The notes below the pieces were generated by a model that worked only from the letters and a program-made list of their open reading frames with translations, made no database searches and was not told the DNA's origin. A DNA stretch of 42,325 bases. Origin: Deltaproteobacteria bacterium (GTDB taxonomy: Bacteria > Desulfobacterota_C > Deferrisomatia > Deferrisomatales > JACRMM01). Shown here piece by piece: positions 9,664-42,325 of this stretch; within the stretch, counting starts at the first letter, position 1, and each line of letters begins with the position of its first letter. Where the stretch lies: NCBI GenBank assembly GCA_016218905.1, contig JACRCS010000049.1, positions 1 to 42,325 on the forward strand, in the 5' to 3' direction. The position numbers and the translations under genes were made by a program.

Positions 9664-11907
9664 ATGGACCAGCGGGCCCCAGAGGATTGCGACCTAGGTG
9701 ACCCCCTCATGCGGGAGCCATGCCGGGGTTCTTGGGAGGCTGCCCTGAGAGGCCTGGACTGCGACGAGTCGAAGACGAGCGCCGAAGGGCTCATTGCCAG
9801 GGCGCTCTCGGAGAACCGCTCGACCTTGAGGCCGCCCGAGGCCGGCGATCTGCTGCGGCTCTACGGGGTGCCCACGGTGCCGGAAGCTGCCGCGCGAGAC
9901 CGGTTCGAAGCCGCAGCGCAGGCCGGCAGGTTGGGCTTCCCGGTCGTCCTCAAGGGGCTCGGTTCGAAACTTCTCCACAAGACCGAGCGCAAGGCGGTCC
10001 GACTGGGGCTGCCGGACAAGCCTGCCGTCTTCGAAGCCGCGTCTGCGATCGGGGCGGCCGCCGGAACGGAGCTGGAAGGTTATCTGGTGCAACCCATGGT
10101 CGCCGGCCGGCGGGAGTTCGTGGCGGGGCTCTTGCGAGACCGGCAGTTCGGCCCCGTCGTGATGTTCGGCCTGGGCGGTGTCTTCGCGGAAGCCCTTCGG
10201 GACGTGACCTTCCGGATCGCGCCCATAGACGAGGCAGAGGCACTCCGCATGCTCGACGAGCTTCGGTCTTCGGGCTTGCTGGGGCCGTTCCGAGGCGAGC
10301 TTCCCGTCGACCGGAGAATGCTCGCCTGCGCGCTCGTGGGCCTCTCCCGCCTCGGCCTGGAGCAGCCGGAGATCGCCGAGGTCGACGTAAATCCCCTCAT
10401 CGCGGGACCCGATGGTCGCCCGGTGGCAGTGGACGCGCTCGTCGTGCTCGGCACACCGCCGACGCGCAGGCCCATCCTCGAAGACGTCTCGTTTCTCGAT
10501 CGCATGCTCTCGCCCCGGAGCATCGCCTTCGTCGGCGCCCGTGGTCGAGACGAGGAGGATTGGCAGGACCTCTTCGCCGCGATTCAAAGCTTCGGCTATC
10601 GCGGCCGTCTCTATCCCGTCAACCCGCGCGCCGCCGAGATCGGCAAGCTCAAAGCCTACCCCGATCTCGGCTCTCTCCCGGAGAGGGTGGACCTCGTTAT
10701 CATCGCCGTCTCGGCTCGACGAGTCCCCGCCGTTCTCGAGGAGTGCGTCGCGACCGGGAACCGCAATGTACACATCTTCACGGCCGGGTTCAGAGAGACG
10801 GGTGAGGAGGAGGGACGTCGGCTTCACGCCGAAATCGAGGTCCTCGCCGACTGGGGAGGACTCAACGTGATCGGTCCCAACTGTATGGGTATCTACAATC
10901 CTCGTGTTCGCCTCGCCACGTTCAGCCCGGCCCCCGCTCCGAGCGGGCCCGTCGCGTTCGTGAGCCAGAGCGGGGGTCACGCCGCATTGCTCGCGACTTA
11001 CGCGGAGCAGTTCGGCATCCACTTCAGCAAGGTCGTCAGCTACGGGAATGCCCTCACCTTGGACTGTGTCGACTTCCTCCGCTACTTGGGAGACGATCCC
11101 GAAACCGAAATCATCTGCCTTTACTTGGAGGGCGTACGAGATGGGGGTACCTTTGCCCGCCTGTTGCTGGAAGTCAACCGGCGCAAGCCGGTACTCCTCC
11201 TGAAGGGCGGACTGACGCACCTGGGCGCGAGGGCGACTCTGTCCCATACCGGTTCGCTGGCCGGCGAAGCCCACCTCTGGAACGCGCTGTATCGTCAGAG
11301 CGGCGCGGTCAGGGTGGGCTCCATCGAAGAGATCACGGACGTCCTGGCGGCTCTCCTGTTTCTCGACCTGCCGGCAGGAAACCGCGTCGGGGTGATCGGA
11401 ACCGGTGGGGGCATCGGGGTGCTGGCGGCGGACTGCCTCGCAAGGGAAGGCCTCGAGTTGCCGGCCCTGGGCGAGGAATCGAGGCGAGACTTGCGGGCCT
11501 TCATCCCCGACGCGGGCAATAGCACCACGAACCCCGTTGACGCTGGGGCCGCGTTTATGCACCCGAGCGCCCTCGAACGCGCCCTGAGGGTCCTTGGCGC
11601 CGATCCACTGCTCGACGTGATCCTGATCACTCTCCCACTCGACTGGTTGTTCACTCCCCACAAAGGGGAGAGCTTGCAGAAGCTCGCCCGCTACCTGGCG
11701 GGACCGGGTCGGAAGCACACGAACGGGAAGCCCTATGCCGTGAGCTACAGCCGAGTCCGTGCAGATCTGGCCCTCGAGGCAGCGGAAGAGGACCTTCGGC
11801 GGACCTTGGTCGAGGGCGGCGTCCCCATCTACCCCGAACTGCGTCGCGCCGCCTTCGCCCTCGGCCGAGTGACCGAGTACTCCGCTTTCCGAAGGAGATG
11901 CGGTTAG
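9664..11907 (+). CDS. NDP-forming acyl-CoA synthetase (acetate-CoA ligase family), ATP-grasp first
   Basis: 747-residue CoA ligase that would interconvert an acid, ATP and CoA with acyl-CoA, ADP and phosphate. Domain order is beta then alpha: ATP-grasp about residues 45-265 (LKGLGSKLLHKTE with His105, EVDVNPLIAG), CoA-binding Rossmann about 280-410 (RSIAFVGARG, IGPNCMGIYNP), then succinyl-CoA-ligase-like domains with FVSQSGGH and SHTGSLAG, whose His528 aligns with the phospho-His of this superfamily. Most fused relatives have alpha first. ATG 9664 follows GAGGGGGG; ATG 9709 is a less likely alternative. It closes the amine-catabolism cluster and may activate the acid left after demethylation (inference); the superfamily also includes DMSP-CoA ligase DddX. 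Confidence 0.85.
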   Translation: MDQRAPEDCDLGDPLMREPCRGSWEAALRGLDCDESKTSAEGLIARALSENRSTLRPPEAGDLLRLYGVPTVPEAAARDRFEAAAQAGRLGFPVVLKGLGSKLLHKTERKAVRLGLPDKPAVFEAASAIGAAAGTELEGYLVQPMVAGRREFVAGLLRDRQFGPVVMFGLGGVFAEALRDVTFRIAPIDEAEALRMLDELRSSGLLGPFRGELPVDRRMLACALVGLSRLGLEQPEIAEVDVNPLIAGPDGRPVAVDALVVLGTPPTRRPILEDVSFLDRMLSPRSIAFVGARGRDEEDWQDLFAAIQSFGYRGRLYPVNPRAAEIGKLKAYPDLGSLPERVDLVIIAVSARRVPAVLEECVATGNRNVHIFTAGFRETGEEEGRRLHAEIEVLADWGGLNVIGPNCMGIYNPRVRLATFSPAPAPSGPVAFVSQSGGHAALLATYAEQFGIHFSKVVSYGNALTLDCVDFLRYLGDDPETEIICLYLEGVRDGGTFARLLLEVNRRKPVLLLKGGLTHLGARATLSHTGSLAGEAHLWNALYRQSGAVRVGSIEEITDVLAALLFLDLPAGNRVGVIGTGGGIGVLAADCLAREGLELPALGEESRRDLRAFIPDAGNSTTNPVDAGAAFMHPSALERALRVLGADPLLDVILITLPLDWLFTPHKGESLQKLARYLAGPGRKHTNGKPYAVSYSRVRADLALEAAEEDLRRTLVEGGVPIYPELRRAAFALGRVTEYSAFRRRCG

Positions 11908-31878: not shown

Positions 31879-32478
31879 CTACGGGTGCCCCTGCACGAAC
31901 CTCACGAGCTCTTCGTAGGGGCGAAAGCCGACGAGGAGGCGGCCGTCGAGGACGTGGGTGGGAACGGAGCCGATGCCGCTGCGCCGGGAGCGCGCCCAGG
32001 CGGCGTCGACGGCGCCGGCGAAACGGCGGGTCCGGAGGACCTCCCGGGCCTCGGCGGGGTCCAGGCCGGCTCGAGTCGCCACGGCGACGATCTCCTCTTC
32101 GAGCCCGATGTTCACGCCCTCGGCGAAGTACGCCCGGAAGGCCGCATTTCGGAACGCCTCTCCAGACCCTTCGGACTCCGCCCACTCCCCGAGCTCCTGG
32201 GCTCGGCGGCTGCTCGTGGTTCGGGTCCGGTCCTTCAGGGGCAGCCCGAGCCCTGCGGCGGTACGGCGCAACCGCTCGTTGGCGGCCGCGAGGTCGATCC
32301 TCCCCCGGAAGAGCTCCTCGAGCTCCATCCCCTCAGGCGGGATCTCCGGGTGCAGCGGAAACGGCGTCCAGCGGACCGTCAGGGAGTGCTCCGAGCTTAG
32401 ACGGGCGACACCGACGGTGTCGAAGTAGCACCAGGGTCAGATGTAGTCGAAGAAGATCTCGAGGGTTCGACGTTCCAT
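31879..32478 (-). CDS. DsbA/FrnE-like thiol oxidoreductase with in-frame UGA at the first redox Cys: candidate selenoprotein
   Basis: Thioredoxin-fold oxidoreductase of the DsbA/FrnE family, 199 residues if UGA is decoded. ATG 32478 is preceded at 6 bases by GAGGAG. Residues 1-13 read MERRTLEIFFDYI; codon 14 is TGA (32439-32437), then PWCYF. Homologues have C-P-W-C here, so UGA replaces the first catalytic Cys and gives U-P-W-C. After it come WTPFPLHPEIPPEGMELEEL and the cis-Pro loop GIGSVPTHVLDG (Pro173), with no further interruption. A hairpin suited to SECIS function follows the UGA. An ATG at 32328 would give a 149-residue form without the active site and strand 1, which is not a sensible enzyme. 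Alternatives are a nonsense mutation or a read error (TGC to TGA). No sel genes are in this window. Confidence 0.75.
32406..32422 (-). promoter_or_regulatory. Candidate bacterial SECIS hairpin
   Basis: Read on the minus strand, CGACACC-GUC-GGUGUCG makes seven perfect pairs with a GUC triloop. The loop G is 22 bases after the UGA, inside the spacing known for bacterial SECIS elements (about 16-37), and G and U in the loop are the bases SelB recognises in E. coli fdhF. The 17-base size equals the fdhF upper stem-loop. The fdhF bulged U is not present. Confidence 0.6.
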
Positions 32479-32554
32479 GGGCGGCTCCTCTCGGTGGTTG
32501 CGTAGAGGAGTACCCCAGCGGGGGCAGATGTCAACCAGACGGTCGTCAGTCAGT

Positions 32555-33313: not shown

Positions 33314-33688
33314 ATGAACGTCCCGGAAAAGATGCTGGAAGTTCTGAAGCATGACGGAGTAGTTGCCATCGCCACCATGGGAGTGGATGAGCCGCACCTC
33401 GTCAATACCTGGAACAGCTACGTTAGAATCGCCGACGATGGACGCTTGTTAATACCGGCAGGCTACATGCACAAGACCGAGGCCAACATCCAGAAGAAGA
33501 ACAAAGTCTTGCTCACTCTAGGCAGCAGTAAGGTCGCGGGCAAGAACGGTCCTGGTACCGGTTTTTTGATTCAAGGCACCGCGGCTTTCATTACTTCAGG
33601 CCCTGATTTCGACCGGATGAAGGCGAGATTCGCATGGGCCCGGGCAACCTTGGCGGTAACTGTACTCTCTGTCATTCAGACCTTGTAA
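33314..33688 (+). CDS. Pyridoxamine 5'-phosphate oxidase-family (FMN-binding split barrel) protein
   Basis: 124-residue split-barrel flavoprotein. It opens VPEKMLEVLKHDGVVAIATMGVDEPHLVNTWNSYVRIADDGRLLIPAGYMHKTE, a familiar pattern in small PPOX-fold proteins from anaerobes and deltaproteobacteria, and ends with FAWARATLAVTVLSVIQTL. It probably binds FMN, heme or F420 and acts on an unknown small molecule. AGGAGG precedes ATG 33314. The gene appears complete, although foreign DNA (a PIN-toxin fragment) joins immediately after its stop. It is distinct from the PPOX gene at 35804-36226. Confidence 0.8.
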   Translation: MNVPEKMLEVLKHDGVVAIATMGVDEPHLVNTWNSYVRIADDGRLLIPAGYMHKTEANIQKKNKVLLTLGSSKVAGKNGPGTGFLIQGTAAFITSGPDFDRMKARFAWARATLAVTVLSVIQTL

Positions 33689-34080: not shown

Positions 34081-34389
34081 ATGGAGAAGAGGAGGCCTCA
34101 CTACCGTCTGCCCGAGATACAGACGGTCGTAGCCGACCCGGCCAGTCGCCCCTTCACGAGGACGGCGATCGAGGGCGGGCGCGCGATGGGCCTCACCGAG
34201 ACGCAGATGAGGGAGGTAGTGTGTGGTTTGACCCCCTCCAGTTTTTACAAGGCGATGACGACCGAACACGATAGTACCCTGTGGCAGGACGTGTATCACG
34301 CGCAGATATTCACAGGGGAGACCGCGTACATCAAGATCACTGGGTATGCGGACGGTAGACCACCGGTGATTCAGTTCAAGGCGAAATAG
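34081..34389 (+). CDS. mqsR: Type II toxin MqsR (mRNA interferase)
   Basis: 102-residue RelE-fold endoribonuclease; in E. coli MqsR cuts mRNA at GCU. It begins MEKRRPHYRLPEIQ like the E. coli protein, and the catalytic region FYKAMTTEHDSTLWQDVYHA keeps the Lys, Gln and Tyr that line the active site. No good Shine-Dalgarno is present before ATG 34081, which may keep toxin output low. The toxin-first order with MqsA 8 bases downstream matches the E. coli operon. Both genes look intact. Confidence 0.9.
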   Translation: MEKRRPHYRLPEIQTVVADPASRPFTRTAIEGGRAMGLTETQMREVVCGLTPSSFYKAMTTEHDSTLWQDVYHAQIFTGETAYIKITGYADGRPPVIQFKAK

Positions 34390-34397
34390 GAGCTCCT

Positions 34398-34787
34398 ATG
34401 CAGTGTCCAAGCTGTGGATCCAAGAACACTGTTCATGAGATTCGCGATGAGATCATTCGCTATAAAGGTGAGTCGATTACTGTACATGGTCTGACGGGCG
34501 ATCGTTGTCTGGAGTGCAACGAGGTCGTCTTCGATGCACCAAGCTATGACCGCTACCGTGAGGCAAGCGACAGTCTGATCGCCTCGGTCAACAAGCGCAA
34601 TGCTCCCGATATCAGACGCATCCGAAAGAAGCTGGGACTGACTCAGGTCGCAGCCGCCCAGATCTTCGGCGGGGGGGCAACAGCTTTTTCACGCTACGAG
34701 CGAGGCGAAACACAACCTCCCCTGGCACTGACAAAACTTCTCCTGGTGCTCGACAAGCACCCAGAGCTATTGAAAGAAGTTCGCTGA
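34398..34787 (+). CDS. mqsA: Antitoxin MqsA (zinc-binding, HTH-Xre)
   Basis: 129-residue antitoxin and autorepressor. The N-terminal zinc domain has CPSC and CLEC (four Cys ligands); the C-terminal Xre-like HTH is IRKKLGLTQVAAAQIFGGGATAFSRYERGETQP, nearly the same as the DNA-binding helix of E. coli MqsA, and it ends LLLVLDKHPELLKEVR. The palindromic ribosome site AGGAGCTCCT precedes ATG 34398 directly, so translation should be much stronger than for mqsR. Confidence 0.92.
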   Translation: MQCPSCGSKNTVHEIRDEIIRYKGESITVHGLTGDRCLECNEVVFDAPSYDRYREASDSLIASVNKRNAPDIRRIRKKLGLTQVAAAQIFGGGATAFSRYERGETQPPLALTKLLLVLDKHPELLKEVR

Positions 34788-40355: not shown

Positions 40356-41267
40356 TCACTTCTTCCGGGCGACGGGCCGGGAGGGAACATAGCCGCTCTC
40401 CTCCACGATCTTCTGGCCGGGCTCGCTCAGGATCCACGACAGGTACTCCTTCACCGCGCCCTCGGGCTCCCCGAGCGTGTACATCTGGAGCGAGCGGGCG
40501 ATGGGGTAGGACCGGTCGAGGGTCGTCTCCACCGTCGGCGGCACCGCCGGAGCTCCGGGTTTGGGGGCCACGCCGAGCATCTTGATGCCCCGCGTCGCGT
40601 ACCCCATGCCGCTGTAGGCGATAGCCCCCGGCGTGTTGGCGACGAGCTCCACGACCTCCTTCGAGCCGTTGAGATCCAGCGACCCGAGCTTGAAGTCCTT
40701 CTTCTTGAGGACGCGCTCTCGGAGGAACTCGTACGTCCCCGAGCTCGACTGGCGGCTGACCCGGATGATCTCGTCCCGACCGCTGGGGAGCCTCACGCCG
40801 AGCTCAGACCACTTCGTGATCCGGCCGCCTTCGGCGTAGATCTGCGCCAGCTGGTTCATGGTGATCTCGTTCAAGGGGTTGTCCTTGTGGACGAAGATCG
40901 CCAGGGCGTCGTAGCCCACTACGAACTCTTTCGGGACCTTCCCGTTATTCTTCTTGGCCTCCTCGATCTCCTTCGGCTTCATGTTGCGGGAGGCGTTGGC
41001 GAGGTCGACCGCTCCCTTGATGAGCGCGGCGATGCCGACCCCTGAGCCGCCCCCAGAGACCTCCACTTCCACGCTCGGAGCGGCCTTCTTGTAGGCCTCG
41101 GCCCAGGCCTGGGCGAGGTTCACCATCGTGTCGGAGCCCTTGTTCTGGATCACGGCCACGGCTCCCGCGGCGCTGTCGCTCCGCTTTCCGCAGCCGGCGA
41201 GCCCCAGGAGAAGGGAGGCGCAGGCGAGGAGGACCGGGAGTCGCCGGGGACTCCTCCTGGAGCTCAC
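40356..41267 (-). CDS. pstS: Phosphate-binding lipoprotein PstS
   Basis: 303-residue phosphate-binding protein. GTG 41267 overlaps the phoU stop by 4 bases (GTGA) and opens a lipoprotein signal (VLLACASLLLGLAGC, lipobox LAGC), so it is membrane-anchored. Family features: IQNKGSDTMVNLAQAWAEAY, EVSGGGSGVGIAALIKGAVDLANASR (phosphate-contact loops), and RQSSSGTYEFLRE. The frame upstream of 41267 runs over phoU and is not coding. Confidence 0.94.
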   Translation of the reverse strand: MSSRRSPRRLPVLLACASLLLGLAGCGKRSDSAAGAVAVIQNKGSDTMVNLAQAWAEAYKKAAPSVEVEVSGGGSGVGIAALIKGAVDLANASRNMKPKEIEEAKKNNGKVPKEFVVGYDALAIFVHKDNPLNEITMNQLAQIYAEGGRITKWSELGVRLPSGRDEIIRVSRQSSSGTYEFLRERVLKKKDFKLGSLDLNGSKEVVELVANTPGAIAYSGMGYATRGIKMLGVAPKPGAPAVPPTVETTLDRSYPIARSLQMYTLGEPEGAVKEYLSWILSEPGQKIVEESGYVPSRPVARKK

Positions 41268-42325
41268 TTCGAGTTCACCTTCGTGCCGAGGATCGCCTCC
41301 ACCAGGGCCCGCACGTGGGCCTCGAAGAAGCTGTAGGTCTCCTGGAACGCCGCCCGGATCTCCTCCGGGGAGCCCTTCGACTGGGACGGGTCCTGGCGGC
41401 TCCAGTCGAGGAAGATCACCCTCCTCGGCAGGCGCGGCAGGGCGCGCTGGACCTCGGGCGCGAGGCCGACGATCACCTGGTAGTGGTCGAGGTTCGGCAC
41501 CTGGAAGAGCCCCCTGGGAGCGACCCGCGAGATGTCGAAGCCCTTCTCCTTGAGAAAGCTCACGGTCTGCGGGTCGAGCGAGCTCGGCTCGAGCCCGGCG
41601 CTCGTGAAGATGAAGTGGGGCTGGTTGAGCGCGCTCGCGATGGCCTGGGCCATCTGGCTCCGGCAGGCGTCGTGCTCGTCGACGAAGAGGATCCGGAAGA
41701 CCTCGCTTCCCTGGTGCTTCGCGTACTCGCCGGTGCAGACGTAGAGCACCTCGAGGCAGATGTTCCGGGCGCGGTCGGAGACGCGTTCGAGCCGCCGGGC
41801 GATGGTGGTGAGGGGGCGCAGGGACTCGAAGGGGATCTTCTGCTCCCGGTAGAGCTCCACCATGTCCGTGTTGAGCTTCGACTTCAGCGTGTCGACGGCT
41901 TCCTCCACCTCGATGGTCTTCCTGGCGAGCTCCGCGTCCTGCCGGAGAAACGCCTGGACCGCGTCGTGGACCATCGTGATCGAGAGCTCCGCGAGCTCCA
42001 CGTAGCGCTCCTTCGAGACGGCAGGCGGGAGCGGCCCGAGCTTCAGGGACTGGCGCGCGATGTTCTCCGCGTAGTCGCCCATCTGCTCGAGCTCCTGGTT
42101 GATCTTGATCGTGCTGTAGGCGAGCCGCAGCATCCCGGCGACGGGCTGCTGCCGCACGAGGAACTCGAGGCAGAGCCGGTCGAGCTCCTTCTCCTTCTCG
42201 TCGATGAAGTCGTCGCGCAGGATGATCCCGTAGGCGAGCTGACGGTTGTCCTCGACGAGCGCCTTGACGCAGTCGCGCAGCGCCCGCTCCGCCAGCTCGC
42301 ACATCTCGGCGACCTTGGCGCGCAG
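41264..42325 (-). CDS. phoU: PhoU fused to an ArsC/LMW-phosphatase-like domain, 5' partial
   Basis: First pst-operon gene in view; its frame is open to the window edge, so Met 42304 is internal (LRAKVAEMCELAERAL is ordinary PhoU sequence). Numbering from Met 42304: two PhoU repeats run to about residue 195, with the metal-binding motifs ELEQMGDYAENIA and RLERVSDRARNIC. A C-terminal domain of about 140 residues follows, similar to arsenate reductase/LMW tyrosine phosphatase (FRILFVDEHDACRSQMAQ, FTSAGLEPSSLDPQTV, FLKEKGFDISR). The nucleophilic Cys of the CX5R loop is Asp209, and the later redox Cys pair is missing, so the domain should be catalytically dead and may bind phosphate or arsenate as a sensor (inference). 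The usual PhoU role is to restrain PstB and PhoR. Confidence 0.9.
   Translation of the reverse strand: MRAKVAEMCELAERALRDCVKALVEDNRQLAYGIILRDDFIDEKEKELDRLCLEFLVRQQPVAGMLRLAYSTIKINQELEQMGDYAENIARQSLKLGPLPPAVSKERYVELAELSITMVHDAVQAFLRQDAELARKTIEVEEAVDTLKSKLNTDMVELYREQKIPFESLRPLTTIARRLERVSDRARNICLEVLYVCTGEYAKHQGSEVFRILFVDEHDACRSQMAQAIASALNQPHFIFTSAGLEPSSLDPQTVSFLKEKGFDISRVAPRGLFQVPNLDHYQVIVGLAPEVQRALPRLPRRVIFLDWSRQDPSQSKGSPEEIRAAFQETYSFFEAHVRALVEAILGTKVNSK

Follow-up and report, generated by a model that had tools for sequence, protein, structure and literature searches.

An FrnE-like oxidoreductase with an almost certain selenocysteine at its active site, and a proposed history of returns to cysteine in its family

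Introduction

The selenoproteins closest in kind to the one described here belong to COG2761, which we take to be the FrnE family. Nine DsbA-like selenoproteins of COG2761 with a UxxC motif were reported in 2005 from the Sargasso Sea set (PMC1088965), and in two other papers the family is listed as PF01323 with UxxC (PMC9312934) and as 'DsbA-like protein form 1', with the same Pfam assignment and motif (PMC13188914, 2026; NIP15863.1). PMC1794560 lists four DsbA-like selenoproteins and a single Cys-to-Sec event for them, and its Table 1 gives no Sec-to-Cys event for this group; it describes Sec-to-Cys changes as limited in number and found mainly in FdhA and SelD, with some cases in other families where a SECIS remnant follows a Cys codon. 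A term search of the main text of PMC8318568 found no mention of DsbA.

Here we analyse a gene of this kind in a 42,325-nucleotide contig of a Deltaproteobacteria bacterium (JACRCS010000049.1, order Deferrisomatales), the whole of which we call the window. A DsbA-like UxxC selenoprotein of COG2761 is a kind already known since 2005 (PMC1088965), which answers the question left by a first-pass annotation of the same DNA, whether this subfamily was known. As described in that paper, the Sargasso Sea proteins share with the window protein the Pfam DSBA family, a UxxC motif with Sec first and a downstream SECIS, a likeness by description only to members from a marine metagenome; the subfamily studied here differs in being found mainly in anaerobe lineages and in having its hairpin at one fixed place. 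The best solved sequence match is Deinococcus radiodurans FrnE (PDB 5cp1, 5co3, 5coh, 5cnw and 5xwh; 9.5e-16), whose fold matches with a TM score of 0.86-0.90 over the query and whose C-P-W-C aligns with U-P-W-C of the window protein, but which has Cys at the site, 25-27% identity and a chain of 260 rather than 199 amino acids. The Rcas_1661 family (seleno)lipoprotein NF041057, termed DsbG-like in PMC13188914, gave a weak match confined to the C-terminal part, and membership was rejected at 21.8 bits against a curated cut-off of 190.

An in-frame TGA at the active site of an FrnE-like gene

The gene occupies positions 31879-32478 of the minus strand, a frame of 200 codons running from ATG (32478-32476) to TAG (31881-31879) with a single internal TGA. 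Direct reading bore out each coordinate given by the first-pass annotation: a candidate ribosome binding site GAGGAG (32485-32490, minus strand) lies 6 bases 5' of the ATG, TGA stands at codon 14 (32439-32437), and it is followed by CCC TGG TGC and then by an open frame to the TAG. The TGC (32428-32430, minus strand) encodes Cys17, the probable resolving partner in U-x-x-C, and the codon at 31960-31962 (minus strand) encodes Pro173, which is on the list of residues at least 90% conserved and stands, by position in the sequence, at the cis-proline place of DsbA-fold proteins. When TGA is translated as Cys, Pfam DSBA matches residues 5-193 (1.8e-30), so the uninterrupted DsbA-fold protein that the first-pass annotation had described after the UGA is borne out by the open frame, the domain match and Pro173. 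The DSBA domain, the UxxC motif and the cis-proline position place the 199-residue product in the FrnE/DsbA family (PF01323), and its in-frame UGA aligns with the redox Cys of homologues, as expected of a bacterial selenoprotein.

The open reading frame found in the same frame with table 11 spans 31879-32328 and encodes 149 amino acids from which the active site is missing, as had been expected of a start at 32328. In the relatives of the gene, however, the codons just 5' of the TGA are conserved, as are codons 15-50, which extend from the TGA to ATG 32328 and include F40, P41, L42, H43, P44, E45 and P47, each at least 90% conserved in the family. The coding region therefore spans the TGA. Standard annotation would shorten the gene, whose internal stop is almost certainly read as selenocysteine in the active site.

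An AlphaFold2 model (C in place of U) has a mean pLDDT of 97.3, and in a Foldseek search its top six matches, with TM scores of 0.86-0.90 over the query, were SCO1869 and five entries for FrnE. Residue 14 is predicted to sit just before the first helix (residues 15-30), and in the model the 149-residue form would lose strand 4-10, helix 15-30 and strand 33-39 together with the active site. By analogy with the family, the selenolate of Sec14, placed before the first helix, would be the attacking residue, and Cys17 would resolve the selenenylsulfide during thiol-disulfide exchange. No signal peptide is apparent by eye at the N-terminus (MERRTLEIFFDY), and a cytosolic role as reductase or isomerase therefore seems more likely than periplasmic oxidation.

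Relatives of the gene and the state of codon 14

A contig scan with alignment A1 yielded at least 497 confirmed relatives, ranked by likeness to the window, and the best 80 were used as the DNA set. Codon 14 is TGA in 79 of these 80 loci and TGT in one (L016), and PWC follows in all 80. Because 79 relatives carry TGA at the same codon, chance is excluded, in agreement with the first-pass argument that a random nonsense mutation at precisely this codon is unlikely; because it is the same single codon in each and the frame continues beyond it, the relatives are not decayed genes either. Because these loci are those ranked highest for likeness to the window, the proportions do not give the share of Sec in the whole family. 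The record titles of the 80 loci name Desulfuromonadales, Geobacteraceae, Desulfobacterales, Desulfarculaceae, Deferrisomatales and 'Deltaproteobacteria', along with some MAGs of Gammaproteobacteria, SAR324 and Abyssobacteria.

Two further sets, both overlapping the first 80 loci, gave a similar picture. In the order of genome G020, 46 of 141 genomes have a match, and among 46 matches with E <=1e-30 there are 42 with one in-frame TGA and four without a stop; the 49 distinct sequences at codon 14 among loci L081-L135 (L113 stops short of the site) comprise 45 TGA, three TGC and one TGT. Three genomes (G015, G029 and G108) carry a Sec copy alongside a Cys copy, and three others (G020, G064 and G137) carry two TGA copies; these are paralogues. 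Plasmid records contributed 36 matches, all below 60% identity, and the five examined have Cys at the site.

A protein search returned 458 homologues. Among the 120 listed, 52 have CPWCY, two have WPWCY (P0038 and P0073) and 66, of 153-198 amino acids (median 178), start after the motif, as would be expected in such protein records if the genes had been truncated at an in-frame TGA. Because its members are so often predicted without the active site, the databases hide the function of the family. The public predictions P0038 and P0073 have Trp at the Sec site, as if the gene caller had used a code in which TGA is Trp, and predictions of this type offer a handle for finding misread selenoproteins.

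A SECIS-like hairpin downstream of the TGA

Downstream of the TGA, at 32405-32423 of the minus strand, lies a bacterial SECIS-like hairpin that the first-pass annotation did not mention and that supports Sec independently of its arguments. In the window it comprises a 7-bp stem (32422-32416 with 32412-32406) and a GUC loop (32415-32413), and the distance from TGA to loop is 20-21 nt across the family and 21 nt in the window. In a gapless 51-nt alignment of the window with the 79 loci that have TGA, the TGT locus being left out, 13 nt separate the TGA from the first stem column, column 17. Stem columns 17-24 pair with columns 28-35 in 85.6% of 624 cells, and pairing falls to 22.3-42.6% when the stem is slid by 1-3 columns. 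Both sides of a pair have changed in 60 cells, compared with 18.3 in shuffles, and six of the eight pairs are involved; the innermost pair is formed in only 14 of 78 distinct rows. Each of the 80 rows has five to eight of the pairs, loop column 25 is G in all 80, and RNAalifold, given no structure, recovers six of the hairpin's pairs.

Since the hairpin stands in coding DNA, pairing was compared with a null model in which synonymous codons were redrawn with each gene's own usage (300 draws). The observed mean of 6.84 of 8 pairs compares with 4.60 expected (sd 0.11; maximum of the 300 draws, 4.94). Taken alone, the window hairpin forms seven of the eight pairs (p = 0.035 under synonymous recoding), and its 51-nt stretch shows no unusual stability (z -0.64; matched by 49 of 200 shuffles). 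With stability and pairing in the window itself weak, the evidence for the hairpin is that of the family.

Published limits for bacterial SECIS elements are a loop of 3-9 nt, a stem of 4-16 bp, a G in the first two loop positions, a distance of 16-37 nt from the UGA and a minimum free energy of -7.5 or lower. The 19-nt hairpin of the window lies within all of them (loop 3 nt, stem 7 bp, G first, 21 nt, -9.7 kcal/mol). Across 81 rows, which include the Cys locus L016, G is within the first two loop positions in 80, and an energy of -7.5 is reached by the 19-nt hairpin alone in 22 rows and over 51 nt in 74; all limits together hold in 22 rows by the hairpin's own energy and in 73 by the 51-nt energy. 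These comparisons show a putative hairpin conserved more strongly than the protein sequence requires, with a spacing from the UGA that fits a bacterial SECIS. We infer that SelB with Sec-tRNA would bind this hairpin and deliver Sec at the UGA.

Selenocysteine machinery and alternative readings of the TGA

Genes for selenocysteine insertion, which the first-pass annotation had proposed as a check, were sought in 28 genomes that we selected from those carrying the 80 loci. Scores over the cut-off were obtained for tRNA-Sec in 25 genomes (best hits 61-79 bits; misses in G011, G023 and G025), for selB in 26 (misses in G023 and G025) and for selA in 25 (misses in G023, G024 and G025), so that 24 of the 28 have all three and four (G011, G023, G024 and G025) lack at least one; the missing genes may be gaps in draft genomes. 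All three are present in G007 and G018, which bear L007 and L025, loci grouped with the window in the smallest clade that is well supported. Among the 14 control genomes, some of which (E. coli, for example) use Sec themselves, the cut-offs were passed in five for tRNA-Sec, two for selB and one for selA; for tRNA-Sec the call rests on the high scores. A search with Rfam, confined to the window, found no tRNA-Sec there.

Aligned homologues, the hairpin and the machinery of relatives thus all favour the claim from which this analysis started, that Sec replaces the first redox Cys. A TGA is one base away from TGC or TGT, and Cys homologues exist (the 52 listed proteins above), so that one might suspect an ordinary FrnE gene of the Cys type that has acquired a nonsense mutation or contains a sequencing error; given that nearly all the examined relatives share the TGA and that the hairpin is kept beyond coding needs, we regard this as very improbable, and at the level of the family the aligned sequences already refute it. 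Still less credible is a real protein that starts at ATG 32328 without the motif, as in standard annotation. The 149-codon frame is open and homologue P0006 is predicted from the equivalent Met, but conservation from the TGA to 32328, and in the codons just before the TGA, speaks against such a start, as does the predicted lack of three N-terminal structure elements and the active site.

The TGA could also be read as another residue, such as Trp, through a change of code or a near-cognate tRNA, and Trp does stand at the site in P0038 and P0073. These two cases are most simply explained by a gene caller set to TGA as Trp; the residue that alternates with TGA at codon 14 is Cys, TGA is the ordinary stop for 12 of the 25 window ORFs with Pfam matches, and Sec machinery is present in relatives, leaving this reading with hardly any probability. 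We are accordingly highly confident that the product is a thiol oxidoreductase of the FrnE/DsbA family with selenocysteine in place of its first catalytic cysteine; this status has good support across the family and is almost certain in the window copy.

These results indicate that the FrnE-like oxidoreductase of Desulfuromonadales and other anaerobe lineages is a selenoprotein in 79 of the 80 loci examined, which were chosen by likeness to a Sec member and include some labelled Gammaproteobacteria and SAR324.

A proposed gain of selenocysteine and returns to cysteine

The new element may be the history of the family, for which the trees suggest a single gain of Sec from Cys followed by about ten reversions; the open-licence literature, as far as its available text goes and supplements aside, yielded no account of returns to Cys in this FrnE-like subfamily. 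On a quick tree with 155 rows, of which 99 were taken as Sec (P0038 and P0073 included by inference) and 56 as Cys, the Sec/Cys label needs ten changes, at least seven of them forced by well-supported branches. A rooted FastTree was built from 125 ingroup rows, leaving out 30 rows of a large Cys clade, and five Cys outgroups from plasmid records. Parsimony on this tree gives one basal Cys-to-Sec gain and ten Sec-to-Cys returns, six of which are single rows whose exact placement is approximate. The 125 ingroup rows form one clade with a base support of 0.458, and the outgroups do not form one clade. A higher cost for gains lets a Sec root tie or win (12 versus 12, then 12 versus 13). Because of this and of the low base support, polarity at the base is weak; the pattern of Cys rows nested within Sec ones is less so.

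Traces of the hairpin were sought in four Cys genes with DNA. L016 retains six of the eight pairs (p = 0.013 under synonymous recoding) and L133, from genome G108, retains seven (p = 0.021), while no remnant was found in L109 (five pairs, p = 0.55) or L081 (four pairs, p = 0.64). The apparent remnants in two of the four genes support the Sec-to-Cys direction, and the genome that carries L016, with its TGT codon, still has selA, selB and tRNA-Sec. We consider it reasonably likely that Sec has been ancestral since a single gain and was dropped about ten times for Cys, in some cases inside Sec-using genomes and in some with SECIS remnants left behind. If true, this history would reverse the picture of few Sec-to-Cys changes drawn in PMC1794560 and go against a published trend of largely one-way change from Cys to Sec. 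The family includes Sec and Cys versions separated by a single atom, and the decay of its hairpin can be traced, which makes it suitable for testing why Sec is retained or lost.

Gene neighbourhood and other features of the window

Flanking ORFs of at least 80 amino acids, within about 5-6 kb per side of the 80 loci and the window, were clustered, and no functional partner emerged from this range. The largest cluster comprises 19 loci, and its representative lies antisense over the selenoprotein gene itself; the next comprise ten loci (window included, two members adjacent) and eight. Other genes of the window bear on the placing of its host. An acyl-CoA-ligase-like protein (9664-11907) matched 11 of 12 genomes in the class of G007, with identities of 45% or less, and does not place it; the chemoreceptor gave matches in mixed taxa. 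The Deferrisomatales match of the PhoU fusion described below, one of few rows with a name, accords with the gene tree, and the host is probably near that order.

Elsewhere in the window, a pair of genes for an MqsR-like toxin (34081-34389) and an MqsA-like antitoxin (34398-34787) lies on the plus strand (Pfam 1.1e-28 and 9.5e-43). A plus-strand gene at 382-1911 encodes an MTTB-superfamily methyltransferase, whose frame is open over profile positions 26-491 of 500; the matched part therefore has no in-frame TAG, and the protein is thus probably a non-pyrrolysine member. A short PNPOx-like frame of 124 amino acids (33314-33688, plus strand) matches Pfam to residue 109, at profile position 97 of 120, and a frameshift near its end is possible. 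On the minus strand, 41264-42304 encodes PhoU fused to a low-molecular-weight phosphatase-like domain, with a 78% match named Deferrisomatales (P0247).
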